Part shown: piece by piece, positions 2,758-11,016 of the stretch
How positions within the stretch are numbered: position 1 is the stretch's first letter
How the letters are laid out: each line of letters opens with the position of its first letter
Source of the DNA: Solobacterium sp.
GTDB taxonomy: Bacteria > Bacillota_I > Bacilli_A > Erysipelotrichales > Erysipelotrichaceae
Assembly (NCBI GenBank): GCA_017475415.1
Contig: JAFVFM010000088.1
Coordinates: 1-11,016 of the forward strand
Direction of reading: 5' to 3'
DNA: 11,016 nt
Notes under the pieces: model-generated
Databases searched by the model: none
What the model was told of the DNA's origin: nothing
The model's input: only the letters and a program-made list of their open reading frames with translations
Position numbers and translations under genes: made by a program

Positions 2758-2784
2758 AAAATCTTACAGTATCATCTGTAAGAT
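2756..2784 (-). terminator. Rho-independent terminator of the apbE-permease unit
   Basis: Nine-base arms at 2761-2769 and 2776-2784 (ATCTTACAG / CTGTAAGAT) enclose a six-base loop. On the minus strand they are followed by a run of T. The stem includes the permease stop codon (2764-2766), so the terminator starts within the last codons of that gene. On the plus strand no T-run follows, so it should act mainly on minus-strand transcripts. Confidence 0.8.
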
Positions 2785-3600
2785 CCAACCACTAAGTAAA
2801 GAAACAAGTAGAACATACAGGAGAATCTGTATGTTTTCTTTTATTTTTGGATGCACACGGAATAGTACAATTGCACCTGTACCTGCATTGGCTAATAAAC
2901 CAGCACATACGGCCGCAAAAGGAATTACATCTTGAAGATAAAGAGTAGAAAGAATAATCGAAGAAGCACAGCTTGGTATCATACCTACTAAGCTACAAAG
3001 GATAATGGAGAAGCGTGGGTTTTGTGTAATTAAACTTTGTATGTTTTCTAAACCTATGCCTTCAATTAAGGCATTTAATAGTAAGGTGATAATAAATAAC
3101 CATAAGGTAACTTGTAAGGTATGACCGATAGCGGAATGTAATATGCCATGACTATGGTCATCATTTTCTCTTTCACAGAAATCACTGATCGCAATTTCTT
3201 TTTTCTTACCCATAAAATGGAGTATATATCCAGCAAGTATCGCGATGATTAATTTGGTGAGTAAGATAGGATAGACTTTTGAAAAGGGTGCTTGGTTACT
3301 GAGCATAATCGCTAACATTTCATCACTTGTGGATAAATATACTGCTGTTAGGGCGCCAGCACTGATTACACCTGTTGCATAAAGGGAAGAGGCGGCACTA
3401 GAAAAGCCACAGGATGGAAATAAACCCAACAAAGCTCCATATAAAACAGATAAGCGATTGTGTTTTTTTAATATTTCTTCGAAGCGTTTATCTGTTTGTT
3501 TTTCTAACCATTCTAATAGAAGATAAGTAAGAAAAAGGAAAGGAATTATTTTGAGTACATCTAAAGTGGTATCAATGAGTATTTCTAGGATTTCTTCCAT
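2764..3600 (-). CDS. Putative metal-exporter-type permease (ArsP_2-like, PF11449)
   Basis: A 278-aa polytopic membrane protein made of two related halves. Each half has a G-x-x-PSC signature (LFPSCGF at 60-66; MIPSC at 207-211) followed by a small-residue-rich helix. The first half also has LSTSDEM (89-95). Between the halves is a charged cytoplasmic-type loop (about 131-160) with four histidines (149, 151, 155, 160), two aspartates and a cysteine, which could bind a metal. This pattern fits the family annotated as putative heavy-metal or manganese exporters (PF11449). I assign it from motif memory, and the substrate is unknown. The start is supported by GGAGG (3611-3615 on the complement), ten bases upstream. 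It overlaps apbE by 16 nt (3585-3600), so the two are co-translated from one minus-strand transcript, which suggests a link to flavin or metal handling around Rnf. Confidence 0.72.
   Translation of the reverse strand: MEEILEILIDTTLDVLKIIPFLFLTYLLLEWLEKQTDKRFEEILKKHNRLSVLYGALLGLFPSCGFSSAASSLYATGVISAGALTAVYLSTSDEMLAIMLSNQAPFSKVYPILLTKLIIAILAGYILHFMGKKKEIAISDFCERENDDHSHGILHSAIGHTLQVTLWLFIITLLLNALIEGIGLENIQSLITQNPRFSIILCSLVGMIPSCASSIILSTLYLQDVIPFAAVCAGLLANAGTGAIVLFRVHPKIKENIQILLYVLLVSLLSGWILQMIL
2812..2848 (+). terminator. Plus-strand terminator inside the convergent permease gene
   Basis: Perfect nine-base arms at 2812-2820 and 2827-2835 (AACATACAG / CTGTATGTT) with a six-base loop are followed on the plus strand by a T-rich tract (TTCTTTTATTTTT). 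It lies 55 bases past the cyclophilin stop and within the 3' end of the oppositely oriented permease gene. It probably ends the CBS-CBS-cyclophilin transcript. Confidence 0.7.
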
Positions 3601-4736
3601 TCTAACTTATCCTCCATATCTTCTGTATAGGCAATAAAATATTGATCCATTTCCTTGCCTAAACAATCCTGTGCCTTATCTTTATCCATAATCCAAACTG
3701 CACTTGCAGCATTGCCTGTTTCCTCTGTATAACGTTTCAATACTTCTTTTCCTTCTGCTACTGTTAAAGAGAATAAAGTAGTGCTTAAACAATCTGCTGC
3801 ACCTGAATCAAGTGTCATAATGGAAACACTATGATAATAGGTGGAAGGGAAGAGGGTTTTTGGATCAATAATATGATGGTAAAGTTTATCATCTTCACCA
3901 ATATAATAGCGTTCATAATCGCCACTCGTCACAAAGGAATTTTCTGTAATAGATTCCATGATCAGCATAGAATCTTCGCCACTAGGATTAGCGATACCTA
4001 TACGCCAAGGTTGATTATTTGGCTTTGTCTTTAATGTGCGTATATTTCTTCCTGCATTAACACTTGCATATTCTACATCTGTTTTTAATATTTCTTGACC
4101 GATTTGTTCGGCAGCATACCCTTTCGCTATACCACCTACATCTAATGATACACAAGGATCTATGATATAGACGGTCTTTTCTTCTTCATTAATTTCCACT
4201 TTATCCCAGCCTTTGCAAGCATTCGCTTTTTCTAATTCTTCTTCGCTAGGAATAGGGCCCTTTTTGTTTTCTTCATTTAAAGCTATCCCTTGATCTCTAT
4301 ACTTGTGCCAAACCTTTAATACGGCCCCCATTGTAATATCAAAAGCGCCATCTGAAAGGTCATAGAAAAGCTTTGCTTCTTTAAGTAAATCTATTACTTC
4401 TTGATCAACTTTAATTGCTTCCTTACCAGCAGAATCATTAATGGCTTTTAAGTTGTTTACCCCCTCATAATCGTTATAGATGTCGAAATAGTTATTGTAG
4501 GAGCTAAATAACTCTACACCTATGTCAAAATGCTTGCGCATAAGTTCTTCATCATAACCATATTCTTTATAGCTATAGATGGTATCAAAGCCGGCATCAA
4601 AAGCCATATTAGAATATTCTTTCAATTCTTTTGTGTTTGTTTCATTTGGCGTTTTGCTTTCTTCTTTTGGGCTTGAGCAACCACATAAAATCAAACAAGA
4701 AAGAAAACTTATTTGTACTATTTTTTTTACTTTCAT
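3585..4736 (-). CDS. apbE: FAD:protein FMN transferase, lipoprotein
   Basis: A 383-aa extracytoplasmic enzyme that moves FMN from FAD onto a Thr (or Ser) of S/T-G-A-T-type motifs in partner proteins, using Mg2+. Residues 1-19 form a signal peptide with lipobox LCGC (Cys20 lipidated). Family motifs are visible: SDGAFDITMG (128-137), LDVGGIAKGYA (198-208), VTSGDYERY (269-277), HHIIDPKT (287-294) and AADCLSTTLF (313-322), the last containing the metal-binding Asp. Two spots differ from what I recall as the usual family pattern: NAGRN (227-231) where a second Gly is common, and TLFP (294-297) where TGYP is common. It is divergent from the rnf operon, whose RnfD and RnfG products carry several acceptor motifs, so these are its likely substrates. 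No good ribosome site precedes the ATG; it is the only sensible start because the signal peptide begins there. Confidence 0.93.
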   Translation of the reverse strand: MKVKKIVQISFLSCLILCGCSSPKEESKTPNETNTKELKEYSNMAFDAGFDTIYSYKEYGYDEELMRKHFDIGVELFSSYNNYFDIYNDYEGVNNLKAINDSAGKEAIKVDQEVIDLLKEAKLFYDLSDGAFDITMGAVLKVWHKYRDQGIALNEENKKGPIPSEEELEKANACKGWDKVEINEEEKTVYIIDPCVSLDVGGIAKGYAAEQIGQEILKTDVEYASVNAGRNIRTLKTKPNNQPWRIGIANPSGEDSMLIMESITENSFVTSGDYERYYIGEDDKLYHHIIDPKTLFPSTYYHSVSIMTLDSGAADCLSTTLFSLTVAEGKEVLKRYTEETGNAASAVWIMDKDKAQDCLGKEMDQYFIAYTEDMEDKLEWKKS

Positions 4737-4825: not shown

Positions 4826-5335
4826 ATGTCATTTTTAACAGGACCAATGAATCATCACCTTGATGGACAGAAGGAACTCACCAAACATGAGCCTGTGCTC
4901 AAAAGCATAGATCCAGAATATGTTTGGGTACCTTTAGCATGTAATGCATCGGTATTTGTGCCTCTTGTTGAAGTAGGTGATGAAGTAAAAGTGGGTCAAA
5001 AGATTGCGGAACGAAATGATCATTTCTATGTACCAGTGTTCTCTAGTGTATCAGGAACAGTAACTGCAATAGAAAAATTCATGACTTCTGCGATGACTCC
5101 TGCTGATCATTTGAAAATTCAAAATGATCATAAATATGAAGCAGTAAAGTCTTTTGAAACGATAGATTATGAAAAAGCTTCATGGGAAGAATTGTTAGAA
5201 TTCGTAAAAACAAGTGGAATGGTAGGTTTAGGTGGGGCTGGTTTCCCAACTTATGTAAAATACCAAAAACCAGAAAATGTTGATCTTTTTATCATCAATG
5301 CCGTAGAATGCGAACCATTCTTAACAGCAGAGTAA
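4826..5335 (+). CDS. rnfC: RnfC N-terminal fragment (169 aa)
   Basis: The open segment before the internal stop. It holds the N-terminal RnfC barrel/sandwich region (ELTKHEPV near 17-24, VGDEVKVGQKIAE near 50-62, SSVSGTV near 73-79) and the start of the NADH/FMN-binding (51-kDa-like) domain with the glycine-rich loop GLGGAGFPT at 134-142, ending in VECEPFLTAE. On its own it would lack the rest of the flavin domain and both Fe-S clusters. The ATG at 4826 has a strong ribosome site, AGGAGAGGG at 4808-4816. Confidence 0.7.
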   Translation: MSFLTGPMNHHLDGQKELTKHEPVLKSIDPEYVWVPLACNASVFVPLVEVGDEVKVGQKIAERNDHFYVPVFSSVSGTVTAIEKFMTSAMTPADHLKIQNDHKYEAVKSFETIDYEKASWEELLEFVKTSGMVGLGGAGFPTYVKYQKPENVDLFIINAVECEPFLTAE

Positions 5336-5353
5336 GCCAATATTGAAGAAAAC

Positions 5354-6133
5354 ATGGATTTACTTAAAACAGGTACATTAGCTTTCTTTAAATTGAGCAA
5401 GGCTAAGGCGGGCTGTGTTGCGATTAAAGAAGATAAACATGAACAAATTGCTGCATTAAAAGCTGCTTTTGCGAATACGCCAATTGAAATTCGTACAGTA
5501 CCTGATATTTATCCGATGGGTTGGGAAAGAACATTGGTATATCAATTAACGAAAAAGCGTTATGATAAACTGCCAATTGAAGCTGGTTGTATTGTGAATA
5601 ATGCATCGACTGCTATTGCTTTAGGTGATGCCTTAATGAATGGCCGTCCTATCACAAAGAAATATTTAACGATTTCTGGTGACGCATTAAAACAACCACG
5701 CAATGTATGCGTACCTATCGGCACAAAGACATGCGAAATCATTGATGCAATTGGCGGTTATAAAGATGGCGTAGAAGATGTATTAATGATTGCAGGTGGC
5801 CCTATGATGGGTAAGGCTATTCCAAATGATCAATTTGTGGTAGGTCTTGCAAACAACGGTATTACAGTACTTAAAAATGATCCAATTGACGAAGTGAATT
5901 GTTTACGTTGTGGTAGATGTACAGAAACATGCCCATCTGGCTTACAACCAGTACGTATTCAAGAAGCGGGCAAGATTAATGATGTGGAAAGACTCAATCG
6001 TTTATCGGTTATGGATTGTATTGAATGTGGTATGTGTACATGGGTATGCCCATCTAAGATTGCCGTAACAGAAAATGTACGTCGTGCAAAGAAATATTTG
6101 CAACTACAAAACGCAAAGAAGGGGGCTAAGTAA
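5354..6133 (+). CDS. rnfC: RnfC C-terminal fragment (from first in-frame ATG after the stop)
   Basis: The in-frame continuation of RnfC after the TAA. It carries the remainder of the NADH/FMN domain, a SLBB-like segment and two complete [4Fe-4S] motifs. In full-length numbering, counting the stop as residue 170, these are Cys359/362/365/369 and Cys398/401/404/408, each ending in CP. The ATG at 5354 has only a weak purine stretch upstream (GAAGAA, four bases away), so independent re-initiation would probably be inefficient. Its 3' end supplies AAGAAGGGGG (6116-6125), the likely ribosome site of rnfD. Confidence 0.65.
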   Translation: MDLLKTGTLAFFKLSKAKAGCVAIKEDKHEQIAALKAAFANTPIEIRTVPDIYPMGWERTLVYQLTKKRYDKLPIEAGCIVNNASTAIALGDALMNGRPITKKYLTISGDALKQPRNVCVPIGTKTCEIIDAIGGYKDGVEDVLMIAGGPMMGKAIPNDQFVVGLANNGITVLKNDPIDEVNCLRCGRCTETCPSGLQPVRIQEAGKINDVERLNRLSVMDCIECGMCTWVCPSKIAVTENVRRAKKYLQLQNAKKGAK

Positions 6134-6137
6134 GAAT

Positions 6138-7562
6138 ATGAAATTTACCTTTAAACCGTCTCCTAATTACCGTAATACAAAGTCAACAACAGGCATCATG
6201 TTTGATTTATGCCTATGTCTATGCGTTGTGTTATGCGGTTCGGCTATTTATTATGGTATAAATTTTGGATTAGAAATCGGCTTAAGAGTTGTACTTATGG
6301 CTGTCTTTGCGGTAGCAGCAGCCGTATTAACAGAATTTGTTTATTATAAGGCAATGAAAGCTAAAGATGTAAAACAAGCGATTTTACATTCTTATGGCTG
6401 GATTACTGCATTGATTTTAGTTTGTATCACAAGAATTGATGTAAGCTATTATGCAGTTATCATATCTACGATTATCGCCATCTTATTTGGTAAGCTCGTC
6501 TTCGGTGGCTTTGGACAAAATATTTTCAATCCAGCTGCCTTTGGTGAAGCAATTATTATGAATGCTTTTGCGGCATCCAATAGTGCTTCTGTCACAGGAA
6601 AAGTATTTGATGCAGTAAGTGGTGCGACACCAATGACAACAGCGAATGGCTTTGGCTGGGTACTTCAAAATGGTGTATTTGAAAAGCCAGGCTTTATCAA
6701 TATGTTGTTGGGCAATTATACAAGTGTTATTGGTGGCTCTTGTGCATTACTTATCTTATTATGTCTAGCTTTCTTAATTTGGCGTAAAGACATTTGTTGG
6801 AGAACAACAGCTAGCTACTTATGTGCAATCTTTGTGATTTCCTTAATTGTTGGCTTTGTGCAAGGAACAGGTTTAAGCTTTGCCTTATTTAATACCTTAG
6901 GTGGTGGTGTATTATTCGGTGCTGTATTTATGTTGACAGATCCAGTTACTTCACCATTAAGTATTCCAGGTAGAATTGTTTATTCTGTAGGTGCTGCGGC
7001 ATTAACCTTAATTTTAAGATGGAGAGCAAATTTACCTGATGGTGTATTATTTTCAATCTTATTAATGAATATGTTAGTACCTGCTATCGACCAATTTATG
7101 GATGGTAATCAAATTAAAGATGCTTCTAAATTGAGAAATAAAGTATTAATCACTTCTGTTATAGCAGGTTTAATTGCTGTATTATGTGGTGCAACAGCCC
7201 AAGCGAAAGAGCCAGTAGTTGTTGAAAATACATCAAGTGAAGCAGTTGAAGCAGTTGCCTTAAATCAAGAAGATTTAAGTGAACGTAAAGCGAGTTGTGA
7301 TGGTGAAGTATGTACAGCATTAGGCTTTGGTGGTGCTGAAAATAAGGCAACAATTGTTGTGAAAGATGGCAAAGTGGAAAGCTTTGAAGCAGAAAAAACA
7401 GGTGACTATGGAGATGAAATGGGCGATGATGCTTATGACAAAACTGACCGTTATGTAGGTGCTACATTAGATACAATAATTGATAATGTAACTGGTGCTA
7501 CAGAAACATCCAAGTCCTTCCGTGCAATGGTAAAAGCAGCTTTAGAAGCTGCGGGGAAATAA
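6138..7562 (+). CDS. rnfD: RnfD, electron transport complex subunit D, with extra TM helix and FMN_bind-like C-terminal module
   Basis: RnfD is the polytopic subunit (NqrB homologue) carrying covalent FMN. The 474-aa product has the canonical part at 1 to about 330: many membrane helices, the motif GGFGQNIFNPAAFG, and the flavinylation motif SGATPMTT with acceptor Thr164. Typical RnfD ends after the helix near 310-330. Here a charged stretch (KDASKLRNK) leads into an additional hydrophobic helix (about 336-353), then about 20 linker residues and a 100-aa module (374-474) with Cys387 and Cys392, KDGKVESFE, TGDYGDE and a second acceptor motif TGATETS (Thr455). Basic residues before the extra helix predict that the module is outside the cell. 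The module is nearly the same as one in RnfG. The start at 6138 fits conserved RnfD N-termini (MKFTFKPSPNYRN); an ATG at 6075 inside rnfC is not plausible. Confidence 0.93.
   Translation: MKFTFKPSPNYRNTKSTTGIMFDLCLCLCVVLCGSAIYYGINFGLEIGLRVVLMAVFAVAAAVLTEFVYYKAMKAKDVKQAILHSYGWITALILVCITRIDVSYYAVIISTIIAILFGKLVFGGFGQNIFNPAAFGEAIIMNAFAASNSASVTGKVFDAVSGATPMTTANGFGWVLQNGVFEKPGFINMLLGNYTSVIGGSCALLILLCLAFLIWRKDICWRTTASYLCAIFVISLIVGFVQGTGLSFALFNTLGGGVLFGAVFMLTDPVTSPLSIPGRIVYSVGAAALTLILRWRANLPDGVLFSILLMNMLVPAIDQFMDGNQIKDASKLRNKVLITSVIAGLIAVLCGATAQAKEPVVVENTSSEAVEAVALNQEDLSERKASCDGEVCTALGFGGAENKATIVVKDGKVESFEAEKTGDYGDEMGDDAYDKTDRYVGATLDTIIDNVTGATETSKSFRAMVKAALEAAGK
7257..7559 (+). repeat. FMN_bind-like module at the RnfD C-terminus (copy D)
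   Basis: This copy encodes RnfD residues 374-474. The core pattern is shared with three modules of RnfG: paired Cys, A-L-G-F-G-G, N-K-A, D-G-K-V-x-x-F, T-G-D-Y-G-D-E, G-A-T-L, I-D-x-V-T/S-G-A-T-x-T-S, S-F-R-A-M. By hand alignment, 74 of 92 residues match module 1 of RnfG. The order of elements follows the PF04205 FMN_bind layout, with the usual ETPG-type stretch replaced by TGDYGDE. Confidence 0.85.
7296..7330 (+). repeat. 35-nt direct repeat, copy in rnfD
   Basis: Bases 7296-7330 are identical to 8189-8223 in rnfG, including every third-codon position. A further exact 16-base match lies just upstream (7248-7263 and 8141-8156). Such DNA-level identity between two genes points to recent duplication or gene conversion of the FMN module. 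Confidence 0.9.
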
Positions 7563-7573
7563 GGGGGTGAATG

Positions 7574-9220
7574 ATGATGAAGAAAGATTCAGCTCTTTAT
7601 AAAGCAGTCTTATTAGCGATAGTTTGTACAGTATGTGGCTTATTGTTATCCCTAGTTAATGGTGTAACAAAACCAATTATTGAACGTAATGCAATCGCGG
7701 CTGTAGAAGCAAGTTTAAAAGAAATTTATCCAGATGGAACATTTAAAGATGTTACAGAAGATTATATTTCTCAAGATGAAACAGGCCTAATTGATGGCAT
7801 ATATGAAGCAGAAGGTAAAGGCTATATCTTTACTCTCCATAATAAAGGTTATGGTGGCGACTTTAAGTTTATGATTGGGTATAACAATGATGGAACAGTT
7901 GCCGGCTATAAAGGCTTAGAACATTTAGAAACACCAGGTAAGGGTGCTTTATGTTTTGAAGGGGATTATGTAGAACAAGTAAAAGCTTTAACATCTAGTG
8001 ATCCACTTCCATTAATTACAGGTTCTACCATTACAAGTGCTGCAGTAAATGATGCGGTAAGTGCTGCTAAAGCAATCTTCAATAATATTGCAGGAATCTC
8101 CTATGATCCTAATGCGGAACCAGAAAAACCAGCAGAACCTGAAGCAGTTGCCTTAAGTGAAGAAGACTTAAGCGATAGAAAGGCTAGCTGTGATGGTGAA
8201 GTATGTACAGCATTAGGCTTTGGAGGCGCAGAAAATAAAGCGAAAGTTGTTGTGAAAGATGGTAAAGTAGAAAGCTTTGAACCAGAAGAAACAGGTGACT
8301 TTGGCGATGGTATGGGTGAAGAAGCCTATAGCGAATTAGAACGTTATATTGGCGCAACATTAGATACAAAGATTGATAATGTATCTGGAGCAACAGAAAC
8401 ATCGAAATCCTTTAGGGCTATGATTAAAGCAGCCTTAGAGGGTGGTACATCCGCAAATGAAGAAAAGGAAGAAGAAGTAAAGCTTACTTTAGCTGATGAA
8501 GATTATTCTTCTTATGCTAAACCAAGTTGTACAGAAGAAAGCCGTGATGGGCAGGTAGCTGTATATGCATGTAGTGCAACTGGCTTTGGTGAAAAAGTAA
8601 ATAAGGCTACTATAACGGTAGATGATGCAAAAGTAAGTGCCTTTGTTGCAGAACAAACAGGCGATTATGGGGATGAAGTTGGTGATAAAGCATATACCGA
8701 TGAGAATTATGCAAATTATGTTGGCGCAACATTAGAAAGCACTATTGATCATCTTAGTGGTGCGACAATTACATCTAAATCCTTTAGAGCGATGGTAAGT
8801 GAAGCCTTAAAAGCCTTTGGTGGACCTGCTGCAATAAATGAAGAAGGTAGTTCTTCTGAAGGTAAACAAGCTACAGGCTTAATTGCAGAAGACTTAAGTG
8901 CGCATAAGGCAAGTGCTGAAGTAGAAAGTAATGATGGAGTAACAGCAGTTGTGAATTGTACAGCCTTAGGTTTTGGTGATAAAGAAAACAAGGCGAAGGT
9001 AACAATTGATTTAGAAACAAAAACAGTCAAAGCTTTCGAAGTAGAAAAAACTGGTGACTATGGTGATGAAGTAGGAGATGGGGCTTATTCAGATGATAAT
9101 CTAGCAATGTATAACGGCATTGGCCAAACTGCTGAATTAGATAATGTCAGTGGTGCATCTATTACTTCACAATCTTTTAGAGCAATGATACAAGCTGCCT
9201 TTGCGGCTTGTGGGGAATAG
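7574..9220 (+). CDS. rnfG: RnfG, electron transport complex subunit G, with three extra FMN_bind-like modules
   Basis: RnfG is a membrane-anchored extracytoplasmic flavoprotein with covalent FMN. This product is about 548 aa; usual RnfG proteins are about 180-220 aa. Residues about 10-30 form the single membrane anchor. The canonical FMN_bind domain spans about 40-175, with GYGGDFKFMIG, LEHLETPG and the acceptor motif TGSTITS (Thr152). A Pro/Glu-rich linker (PEKPAEPEA) leads to three further modules at about 193-291, 304-417 and 435-548. Their acceptor motifs are SGATETS (Thr274), SGATITS (Thr398) and SGASITS (Ser529). All should lie outside the cell, where ApbE acts. ATGs occur at 7571, 7574 and 7577 behind AAGGGGGTGA (7561-7570); I prefer 7574 for spacing, and 7577 is equally possible. 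The stop TAG is embedded in the rnfE ribosome site. Confidence 0.94.
   Translation: MMKKDSALYKAVLLAIVCTVCGLLLSLVNGVTKPIIERNAIAAVEASLKEIYPDGTFKDVTEDYISQDETGLIDGIYEAEGKGYIFTLHNKGYGGDFKFMIGYNNDGTVAGYKGLEHLETPGKGALCFEGDYVEQVKALTSSDPLPLITGSTITSAAVNDAVSAAKAIFNNIAGISYDPNAEPEKPAEPEAVALSEEDLSDRKASCDGEVCTALGFGGAENKAKVVVKDGKVESFEPEETGDFGDGMGEEAYSELERYIGATLDTKIDNVSGATETSKSFRAMIKAALEGGTSANEEKEEEVKLTLADEDYSSYAKPSCTEESRDGQVAVYACSATGFGEKVNKATITVDDAKVSAFVAEQTGDYGDEVGDKAYTDENYANYVGATLESTIDHLSGATITSKSFRAMVSEALKAFGGPAAINEEGSSSEGKQATGLIAEDLSAHKASAEVESNDGVTAVVNCTALGFGDKENKAKVTIDLETKTVKAFEVEKTGDYGDEVGDGAYSDDNLAMYNGIGQTAELDNVSGASITSQSFRAMIQAAFAACGE
8150..8446 (+). repeat. FMN_bind-like module 1 of RnfG
   Basis: Residues about 193-291. 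It has paired cysteines (206 and 211), the TGDFGDG variant of the central motif and acceptor motif SGATETS (Thr274). It is the closest relative of the RnfD module, at both protein and DNA level. Confidence 0.85.
8189..8223 (+). repeat. 35-nt direct repeat, copy in rnfG
   Basis: Identical to 7296-7330 in rnfD, and codon-aligned with it. Recombination between the copies would therefore join the two genes in frame and delete about 0.9 kb. Confidence 0.9.
8483..8824 (+). repeat. FMN_bind-like module 2 of RnfG
   Basis: Residues about 304-417. The two cysteines are spaced further apart (319 and 333) because of a short insertion. The core motifs ATGFGEKVNKA, TGDYGDEVGD and YVGATLE are followed by acceptor motif SGATITS (Thr398). 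It is more divergent from module 1 than the RnfD copy is. Confidence 0.85.
8876..9217 (+). repeat. FMN_bind-like module 3 of RnfG, with Ser at the acceptor position
   Basis: Residues about 435-548. The first cysteine of the usual pair is lost (only Cys462 remains), and GATL is replaced by a GIGQTAE-type stretch. The acceptor motif is SGASITS, so Ser529 takes the place of the flavinylated Thr. The module still has TGDYGDEVGD and SFRAM. It ends the protein with CGE. Confidence 0.82.
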
Positions 9221-9231
9221 GAGGTAGGAAT

Positions 9232-9894
9232 ATGGAAAAGAAACAAGGCTTCTTTACAAAATTATTAGTTGAAAATCCCGTATTCGGACTCTATTTAGGA
9301 ATTTGTTCTTCCTTAGCAATAACAACTACCCTAAATAATGCGATAGGTATGGGTGTTGCGGTAATCTTCGTATTAGTATTCTCAAATATTTTTGTTAGCT
9401 TAGTACGTAATATTACACCAGATGATATTCATATCCCTGTATATATTGTTATTATTGCGACGCTTGTAACGATTGTAAAAATGGTCATTCAAGCTTATGC
9501 TCCTAGCTTATATACAGCACTTGGTGCCTTCATTGACTTGATTGTCGTAAACTGTATTATTCTTGGCCGTGCTGAAGCATTTGCCTCAAAGAACTCAGTT
9601 GGGGCTTCCGCAATGGATGGCTTAATGATGGGCTTATCTTATACATTAAGTATTCTAGCGATGTCCTTTATTCGCCAATTACTAGGTACAGGATGTTTAT
9701 CTTTATCTAATCCATTCAATAATGCGACAATATTCGATATTCGCTTATTACCACAGGGTTATGAAATTCCTTTATTTACAGGGCAAACAGGTGCCTTCTT
9801 AACCTTTGCGGTATTAGCTGCTTGTATTGCAGCATATAAAAATCATTTGGATACTTTAGAAAAAGAAGAAACAAAGAAAGGAGCAACAAAATAA
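9232..9894 (+). CDS. rnfE: RnfE, electron transport complex subunit E
   Basis: A 220-aa integral membrane protein of the RnfA/RnfE (NqrD/NqrE) family, with about six helices. Cys25 (LGICSSL) and Cys108 (VVNCIIL) lie in the conserved positions that, with the matching cysteines of RnfA, hold the membrane-embedded [2Fe-2S] cluster moving electrons across the membrane. ENPVFGLYLGICS and NNAIGMG are typical. The ATG at 9232 is chosen over an upstream in-frame one at 9208 because GGAGGT (9220-9225) sits six bases before it and the N-terminus then matches the family. It ends in a TAATG overlap with rnfA. The C-terminal tail is short and basic/acidic (KEETKKGATK). Confidence 0.95.
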   Translation: MEKKQGFFTKLLVENPVFGLYLGICSSLAITTTLNNAIGMGVAVIFVLVFSNIFVSLVRNITPDDIHIPVYIVIIATLVTIVKMVIQAYAPSLYTALGAFIDLIVVNCIILGRAEAFASKNSVGASAMDGLMMGLSYTLSILAMSFIRQLLGTGCLSLSNPFNNATIFDIRLLPQGYEIPLFTGQTGAFLTFAVLAACIAAYKNHLDTLEKEETKKGATK

Positions 9895-10466
9895 TGAATT
9901 TATTTACTTTATTCTTAAGTGCATTGCTCATTAATAATATTATTCTTGCAAAATTCATTGGTATATGCCCATTTATTGGTGTTAGTTCCAAAGTTGAACC
10001 AGCAATTGGTATGGGTTTAGCCGTAATCTTCGTTATCTTTGGTGCTTCTGTACTAGCGTGGTTACTCTATAAATTTGTTCTCGTGCCACTTGAATTAGAA
10101 TATATGGAATTAATCTGTTTCATCTTACTCATAGCGGCCTTTGTACAATTTGTGGAAATGTTTATTAAGAAAACATCTCCTTCGCTCTATCAACAACTTG
10201 GTATTTACTTGCCATTAATTACAACAAACTGTGCTGTGTTATATGCTGCACAAAATAATATTTCAGAAGGCTATAACCTAATTGAAACAATGGTGAATTC
10301 ATTAGGTATCGCAGGTGGCTTTATGCTCATGCTAGTAATATTTGCGACTATTCGCGAACGTTTACAAGGCAATAATATTCCTAAAGCTTTCCAAGGTAAT
10401 CCGATTGCCTTCATTATCGCTGCGATTATGGCATTAGCCTTCTCTTCACTAGCTGGTTTAGTATAA
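9894..10466 (+). CDS. rnfA: RnfA, electron transport complex subunit A
   Basis: A 190-aa integral membrane protein, the inverted-topology partner of RnfE. LINNIILAKFIGICPFIGVS holds Cys25, and PLITTNCAVL holds Cys113, the two cluster-ligand cysteines. Length and about six hydrophobic segments are normal for RnfA. The start overlaps the rnfE stop by one base (TAATG), with AAAGGAG at 9877-9883 as ribosome site. Its own stop overlaps the next small gene in the same way (TAATG at 10464-10468), so the three are translationally coupled. Confidence 0.96.
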   Translation: MNLFTLFLSALLINNIILAKFIGICPFIGVSSKVEPAIGMGLAVIFVIFGASVLAWLLYKFVLVPLELEYMELICFILLIAAFVQFVEMFIKKTSPSLYQQLGIYLPLITTNCAVLYAAQNNISEGYNLIETMVNSLGIAGGFMLMLVIFATIRERLQGNNIPKAFQGNPIAFIIAAIMALAFSSLAGLV

Positions 10467-10666
10467 TGAGTCCACTTAGTATAATCGTTGCTGTAATTCT
10501 TGTTGTAGGTCTATTCGGTATCAATGTTTGGCTCTATCGAGCAAATCAAGCAACGCCTGTACCAGAGGGTTGTGAGGATTTAACTCCTCAATGTGCTACC
10601 TGTGGTATAGTCGATTGTGCAATTCGCAGTAAACAAAGGAAGGGTGAAGAAAATGGAAATCGTTAA
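10466..10666 (+). CDS. Small Cys-rich single-pass membrane protein between rnfA and rnfB
   Basis: A 66-aa protein I do not recognise as a standard Rnf subunit. Residues 4-24 form one membrane helix. Arg25 after it suggests the C-terminus is cytoplasmic. The soluble part has four cysteines, C36-x6-C43-x2-C46-x4-C51, then a basic/acidic tail. C-x2-C-x4-C matches the spacing of the first three cluster ligands in RnfB. The general plan (one helix plus a short four-Cys motif) recalls NqrM, which helps install iron in the related Na+-NQR, and FeoB-associated Cys-rich proteins. Function is therefore only guessed: cluster assembly for RnfA/RnfE or an extra electron carrier. It is clearly a gene: TAATG coupling to rnfA, and a 14-nt overlap with rnfB. 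Confidence 0.8.
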   Translation: MSPLSIIVAVILVVGLFGINVWLYRANQATPVPEGCEDLTPQCATCGIVDCAIRSKQRKGEENGNR

Positions 10667-10934
10667 GGCAGTAATCTTAATGTTAGTACTAGGAGGAGTC
10701 ATCGGCTTACTTCTAGGTATTGCAAGTGTAAAATTATATGTAAAACCAGATACACGTGTTGAAGATGTACTTGCAATGTTGCCAGGTTATAACTGTGGTG
10801 GTTGCGGTAACCCTGGCTGTTCAGGTATGGCAGCAAAACTTGTTGATGGTTCTGCTACTATGGACTTATGTAAACCATGTAAAGCAGATATGAAGGAAAA
10901 GATTAACCAATATTTAAAAGAATATTGTGCTTAA
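10653..10934 (+). CDS. rnfB: Minimal RnfB: membrane anchor plus one four-Cys Fe-S domain
   Basis: A 93-aa protein. Residues 5-25 form the membrane anchor, and residues about 33-80 form the Fes domain (PF04060) with C48-x2-C51-x4-C56-x16-C73, the canonical [4Fe-4S] spacing, in LPGYNCGGCGNPGC. An extra Cys76 follows. RnfB normally continues with two or more ferredoxin-type [4Fe-4S] domains (about 190 aa in proteobacteria, about 280-330 in clostridia). Here it stops after about 17 more residues, with no remnant downstream. A terminator follows within 11 bases, so the short form is the real gene end, not a window cut. The start at 10653 has AAGGAAGGGTG upstream with good spacing. Without the ferredoxin-like domains, its way of accepting electrons from ferredoxin is unclear. 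Confidence 0.87.
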   Translation: MEIVKAVILMLVLGGVIGLLLGIASVKLYVKPDTRVEDVLAMLPGYNCGGCGNPGCSGMAAKLVDGSATMDLCKPCKADMKEKINQYLKEYCA

Positions 10935-10944
10935 TTCAACAAAT

Positions 10945-10984
10945 GCACACAGTGTTCATATTTATCACTTTGTGTGCTTTTTTT
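10945..10984 (+). terminator. Rho-independent terminator of the rnf operon
   Basis: The hairpin arms are GCACACAGTG (10945-10954) and CAC-TT-TGTGTGC (10966-10977), with a two-base bulge and an 11-base loop, followed by seven T (10978-10984). It lies 11 bases past the rnfB stop and closes the operon. The remaining 32 bases to the window end show no feature. Confidence 0.88.
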
Positions 10985-11016
10985 GTGCAAAACCTTGCCA
11001 AAAGAGAATAAACAAA

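Follow-up and report, generated by a model that had tools for sequence, protein, structure and literature searches.

The window, meaning the whole stretch of 11,016 nucleotides analysed here, is contig C220 of a 1.43-Mb assembly that is 70% complete. Open reading frames and profile matches place an operon with the order rnfC-D-G-E-A-(66-aa ORF)-B on the forward strand and a divergently transcribed apbE on the reverse strand, as follows.

3585-4736, reverse strand: apbE, FAD:protein FMN transferase, 383 aa (PF02424, E 9.6e-65), divergent from rnfC
4826-6133, forward strand: rnfC, identified by profile matches and broken by an in-frame TAA
6135-7562, forward strand: rnfD, 475 aa, comprising canonical RnfD (residues 6-326), an extra helix and an FMN_bind module
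7571-9220, forward strand: rnfG with four FMN_bind domains, 549 aa (TIGR01947 at residues 13-171, below cut-off)
9232-9894, forward strand: rnfE, identified by profile matches
9894-10466, forward strand: rnfA (TIGR01943, above cut-off)
10466-10666, forward strand: 66-aa protein conserved in the family's rnf operons, with one hydrophobic segment and four Cys in its tail
10653-10934, forward strand: short rnfB, 93 aa, with the FeS domain PF04060 only and lacking ferredoxin domains

All the RNF subunits, C, D, G, E, A and B, are encoded together and each is matched by a profile. The score lies above the NCBIfam curated cut-off for rnfA (245.6 versus 229.3), as does that of the RsxE profile PRK12405 (227.9 versus 184), and below it for rnfC, matched in two pieces (115.7 and 216.7 versus 245.95), rnfD (180 versus 207.05), rnfG (78.6 versus 102), rnfE (200.7 versus 213.4) and rnfB (56.2 versus 68.7). 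The TAA that interrupts rnfC occupies positions 5333-5335 and is codon 170 of the gene, in frame. In the fetched family loci that include it, rnfC is uninterrupted at 425-449 aa, as it is at 418-457 aa in loci from other families; the stop may reflect a fault of sequencing or assembly in the draft genome, or a true loss. Wherever RnfB was called among the fetched family loci, 68 in all, it is short, at 89-149 aa, and the start is doubtful in the longer cases. A small Cys-rich protein is present between rnfA and rnfB in 71 of the 77 fetched family loci, and the 66-aa protein of the window, for which a sub-threshold match to FeoB_associated is the sole profile match, may be a small partner of the short RnfB with a redox or metal role.

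At the margins of the operon, a hairpin followed by a T run was seen by eye 3′ of rnfB (10938-10985) and is absent from the list of the terminator scan, and the promoter scan returned 19 promoter-like sites in the window versus 34 in shuffles. A gene for an arsenic efflux protein (2764-3600; NF037962, above cut-off) lies on the same strand as apbE, with a 16-base overlap between its start and the apbE 3′ end.

RnfG contains four FMN_bind domains

The original prediction read this RnfG as the standard flavin domain followed by three related modules that bear acceptor motifs, with ApbE supplied by a neighbouring gene. Profile searching with PF04205 bears out the four domains, and the PF02424 match identifies the divergent gene as apbE. 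The domains are located as follows.

7847-8068, forward strand: RnfG core FMN_bind domain, with the motif TGSTITS at 8018-8038
8234-8440, forward strand: RnfG module 2, with the motif DNVSGATETS
8606-8812, forward strand: RnfG module 3, with the motif DHLSGATITS
8990-9202, forward strand: RnfG module 4, with the motif DNVSGASITS

Together with the module on RnfD described below, all five PF04205 matches are above the Pfam cut-off. Each of the three extra modules has the acceptor motif Dxx[S/T]GA[S/T]; it is also found in the RnfD module, and the RnfG core has TGST. The mean number of such motifs expected in shuffled sequences is 0.012 for RnfG and 0.0036 for RnfD. Structure prediction likewise resolved four confident domains in RnfG, with linkers low in confidence. 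Fold comparison matched the core domain to solved RnfG and module 4 to domain 1 of CbFMN4 (8p2b), the VIA list of the RnfG fold search being taken up by matches to the core domain. Covalent FMN has been reported for CbFMN4 in the text of Tong et al. (2023; PMC10339131). The modules are very probably flavinylated. The outward orientation assigned to RnfG in the original prediction gains support from the solved Rnf complex, in which RnfG is described as one helix with an extracellular body (PMC9588780).

RnfD carries a fifth module beyond an additional helix

The four domains counted on RnfG stand, and the original count missed a module on RnfD that brings the total for the complex to five. The relevant features, including a stretch of DNA duplicated between rnfD and rnfG, are the following.

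7122-7193, forward strand: RnfD extra hydrophobic helix, residues 330-353, beyond the alignable part of the solved RnfD chains
7247-7546, forward strand: duplicated DNA, rnfD copy, 82% identical over 300 bases to 8140-8439
7341-7547, forward strand: RnfD C-terminal FMN_bind module, with the motif DNVTGATETS
8140-8439, forward strand: duplicated DNA, rnfG copy, partner of 7247-7546

In the RnfD sequence, PF03116 matches residues 6-326 and PF04205 matches residues 404-471; the profile scan, at E values up to 1, returned these two profiles only and no match to PF00175. The flavin-site motif proper to RnfD, DAVSGAT, is at residues 159-165. The predicted structure consists of a canonical RnfD, the extra helix at residues 330-353 and an FMN_bind domain, with 9eri_D and 7zc6_D as the best Foldseek matches; the solved RnfDs of Clostridium and Acetobacterium align up to residues 321 and 332, respectively. 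Since both ends of canonical RnfD are described as cytoplasmic (PMC9588780), one more crossing would put an added domain outside, and on this model the extra helix should hold the RnfD module on the outer side of the membrane.

A hydrophobic segment (KD mean of at least 1.6 over 19 residues, taken as the best segment of a 67-residue stretch) follows canonical RnfD in all 68 anchored family RnfDs of the 72 given, in a test that anchored only 6 of 19 RnfDs from elsewhere. Lysine and arginine residues are more numerous before the segment than after it in 59 of these 68 proteins, fewer in 1 and equal in 8. Family RnfDs that have no FMN_bind module have the extra helix too.

Module numbers vary within the family and beyond it

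Of 95 genomes drawn from the family of the window, 80 gave a match to the RnfG query, which in some is due to other FMN_bind proteins alone. The 77 rnf loci fetched, with the window, give 78, of which 69 have complete D, G and E; the 9 incomplete loci were dropped before statistics. RnfG has one module in 43 of the 69 loci, two in 17, three in 7 and four in 2, hence at least two in 26. RnfD has none in 24 loci, one in 36, two in 7 and three in 2, so that 45 loci have at least one, and RnfE has one module in 2 of the complete loci. The total per complex is 1 in 20 loci, 2 in 18, 3 in 18, 4 in 11 and 5 in 2, namely the window and G048; these numbers come from an FMN_bind profile trained on ORFs of the same loci, which may miss diverged modules, and those of the window were set by hand from the profile matches. 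Three loci (L072, L079 and L083) have an FMN_bind module on an RnfE of 366-369 aa, and a 732-aa ORF with two FMN_bind modules occurs at L118 in a genome of the same genus (G075). Among the proteins found by sequence search, two RnfG-like ones (740 and 749 aa, recorded under the names Erysipelotrichaceae bacterium and Solobacterium sp.) have five motifs each, and an 855-aa RnfD recorded for a Spirochaeta sp. has four.

The strict motif [ST]GA[ST] is missing from 18 of 56 extra RnfD modules, from 10 of 39 RnfG modules counted as extra, two of which are probably cores that fall outside the position rule, and from 11 of 67 cores. Modules without it still keep, by eye, a Thr at the acceptor place, and several of the cores concerned read SGST.

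A further 20 loci of the class were picked mostly for long RnfD frames and give no frequency. RnfD modules are found in 13 of them, in families f2, f7, f12 and f17; the other seven have none by profile, one of these (G075, from the genus of the window) being cut by a contig end. In families f8 and f19, the FMN_bind profile scored nothing in the long C-terminal parts of RnfDs that measure 535-657 aa (L120, L127, L128 and L130). Two f12 loci (L126 in G155 and L135 in G104) have no rnfG between rnfD and rnfE, where the gaps are 108 and 84 bases, and in both genomes RnfD carries an FMN_bind module. This is the single FMN_bind match in G104, as is the RnfD module in G197, and a second small FMN_bind ORF that could be RnfG lies elsewhere in G155, G147 and G128. 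In G147, rnfE-A-B was not found adjoining rnfD. The strict motif is absent from the f12 RnfD modules examined, those of G155, G104 and G147. Genomes G116 and G252 gave no FMN_bind match, nor did G184 (f12), which has a 392-aa RnfD frame, and the profile may therefore miss diverged RnfGs.

Modules are exchanged between rnfD and rnfG

Within the duplicated stretch, the RnfD module and RnfG module 2 share 82% identity in DNA over 300 bases and 80% in protein. The corresponding RnfD/RnfG pair in the sister genome (G031) is 98% identical, and the best module pair between the genome of the window and this sister, among those listed, reaches 46%. In loci with at least two extra modules, the nearest relative of an extra module is in the same locus for 43 of 79 and in another genome for 36; among the 43, it is on the other subunit for 21. 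This similarity within loci implies that modules move, or are homogenised, between neighbouring genes.

Candidate acceptors are present in the genomes

No reductase is encoded within the window. Its genome contains two ORFs that combine FMN_bind with FAD_binding_2, on other contigs, both of the flavocytochrome-c type by TIGR01813 (above cut-off) and both with N-termini that look lipoprotein-like by eye; the one on C320 is cut (locus L002). In G031, which is 99% complete, as against 70% for the genome of the window, two such ORFs flank apbE-rnf; the product of one, 659 aa, passes the TIGR01813 cut-off, and that of the other, 618 aa, does not.

Profiles for other donor routes or quinone synthesis (PF12801, PF01794, PF02683, PF03929 and the UbiA prenyltransferase profile PF01040) were run on 12 genomes chosen by hand, for their reductases or for kinship. 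PF12801 matched in 1, PF01794 in 0, PF01040 in 2, PF03929 in 0 and PF02683 in 10, and the RnfD-type profile PF03116 matched once in each of the 12. None of the five gave a match in the genome of the window or in G031, the two of the 12 that belong to the genus of the window, and Rnf is therefore favoured as the donor there. The broader proposal that Rnf is the sole donor in all tested genomes was not upheld, since 10 of them have DsbD_TM (PF02683).

A strong reductase match (E under 1e-60) accompanies 18 of the 26 loci in which RnfG has at least two modules versus 4 of the other 43 (Fisher 3.4e-7, uncorrected for kinship). In phylogenetic contrasts, the log number of matches correlated with all modules at r 0.25 (p 0.04) and with RnfG modules at r 0.20 (p 0.11), the counts resting on at most 13 candidates scored per genome among the matches listed, with split and FMN_bind-only matches included. 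Contrasts with the presence of a strong reductase were not significant for total modules (p 0.28) or RnfG (p 0.36). RnfD modules and reductases were not correlated, either without correction (Spearman 0.10, p 0.43) or in contrasts (p 0.40 and 0.65). Two genomes with four modules each (G064 and G008) have no strong reductase match. We therefore do not uphold a strong statistical link between module number and reductases, which the phylogenetic contrasts weaken.

Discussion

On balance we lean towards a reading in which an otherwise ordinary Rnf bears on its outer face five FMN_bind domains that serve as flexible, flavinylated side arms and feed extracytosolic reductases. The five would be the standard RnfG domain, the three that follow it in tandem and one on RnfD that the extra transmembrane helix exports, and ApbE from the divergent gene would load covalent FMN onto the modules. 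Along the path that we infer, ferredoxin would donate electrons by way of the short RnfB and RnfAE, or NADH would do so by way of RnfC and RnfD, and in either case they would arrive at the flavins of RnfG and RnfD. From there one branch could complete the usual ion-pumping cycle at the other cytosolic partner, and another could run along the flexible flavin arms to extracytosolic FMN_bind/FAD_binding_2 proteins resembling fumarate reductase. We regard this last step, from side arm to reductases outside, as somewhat probable. The original prediction had proposed a chain of flavins passing electrons outwards. Outward transfer is plausible and was put forward earlier for multi-flavinylated RnfGs (PMC8238504), but we favour a flexible brush over an ordered chain, because the linkers are of low confidence and the three FMNs of SaFMN3 share one potential, from which its authors, in the text of their report, infer no directionality (PMC10339131).

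Module numbers that range from 1 to 5 among relatives, nearest relatives that so often share a locus (43 of 79, with 21 on the other subunit) and a reductase link that is weak after phylogenetic correction would also be expected of an expansion that is neutral or provides buffering. Unequal crossing-over and gene conversion would then have multiplied the modules, whose flavins would only store electrons or make it likelier that a flavin encounters RnfD or RnfAE, with no acceptor outside. Such an account fits less well with open frames and, by eye, acceptor Thr/Ser residues that have been kept over large divergence, or with the occurrence of RnfD modules in four further families of the class (20 loci examined), and we consider it rather unlikely. 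Flavin-free modules that act as spacers or binding domains could explain the degenerate motifs of some relatives, but in the window every extra module, whether on RnfG or on RnfD, has the motif, apbE adjoins, and the fold of module 4 matches that of a flavinylated domain, which leaves this possibility highly improbable.

The interrupted rnfC of the window and a short RnfB without ferredoxin domains might instead suggest a one-way electron exporter that has abandoned the ferredoxin:NAD cycle. However, RnfC is a single ORF in the fetched family loci and in those of other families, and the Rnf of Thermotoga maritima, reported to take electrons from ferredoxin and to move Na+, likewise includes a short RnfB, of 10.56 kDa and with one predicted cluster (PMC7414866). 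A one-way exporter is thus improbable, and on the same precedent we rejected the notion that the short RnfB marks a dead complex or a new kind of complex.

More tentatively, and on the doubtful side of possible given that diverged RnfGs may escape the FMN_bind profile (G184), the side-arm reading might be extended to the bacterial class, where Rnf would be a modular respiratory hub. FMN_bind arms would be swapped among RnfG, RnfD and RnfE, an eleventh RnfD helix would hold the outer arm, which would replace RnfG in some lineages, and the arms would feed extracytosolic reductases in an anaerobic respiration that needs neither quinone nor cytochrome. Such arms would bear on how electrons are delivered to outer reductases in this group, where a quinone prenyltransferase match was obtained in only two of the 12 genomes. 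Flavins that are tethered and countable on a known ion pump make the electron route testable by removal of modules. Whether a domain tethered to RnfD can supply the swinging RnfG flavin is a further question of Rnf and NQR mechanism on which the RnfD arm bears, as do loci that lack rnfG at its usual place.

Relation to known systems

The original prediction left open whether such an RnfG had been described. As a class it has: multi-flavinylated RnfGs are on record in RNF clusters, with a proposed bifurcated path that adds a second electron route to extracytosolic acceptors (Meheust et al., 2021; PMC8238504), so that a multi-domain RnfG cannot be treated as undescribed. The RnfG of the window resembles theirs in having more than one FMN_bind domain within an RNF cluster. 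In contrast, the passages on RNF in that article speak neither of modules on RnfD or RnfE nor of an extra RnfD helix or a form without RnfG. We found no description of an FMN_bind domain on RnfD or RnfE, of an exporting RnfD helix or of an RnfG-less Rnf in open-access literature searches, among the papers listed, although the supplementary tables of the same article may list such cases. The multi-domain RnfG is therefore known, and the RnfD-borne module and the RnfG-less loci are apparently the new part, in that we did not find them in print.

CbFMN4 and SaFMN3 (Tong et al., 2023; PMC10339131) are similar to the RnfG of the window in their serial FMN_bind domains and flexible linkers, and covalent FMN is shown for both; they differ in having a predicted secretion signal and an N-terminal anchor, and the text does not describe them as Rnf subunits. 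The Rnf of T. maritima, as described, shares the gene order rnfCDGEAB and a short one-cluster RnfB, and its description mentions no extra modules or 66-aa gene (PMC7414866). The methanogen Rnf with a multiheme cytochrome (Holmes et al., 2019, cited in PMC8238504) offers an analogy for a side path outwards, through a heme protein rather than flavin modules. Finally, the NQR/RNF-like systems in the text of Meheust et al. likewise join an RnfD-type protein to a C-terminal redox domain, which is there the cytosolic PF00175 and here an FMN_bind domain placed after an extra helix (PMC8238504).
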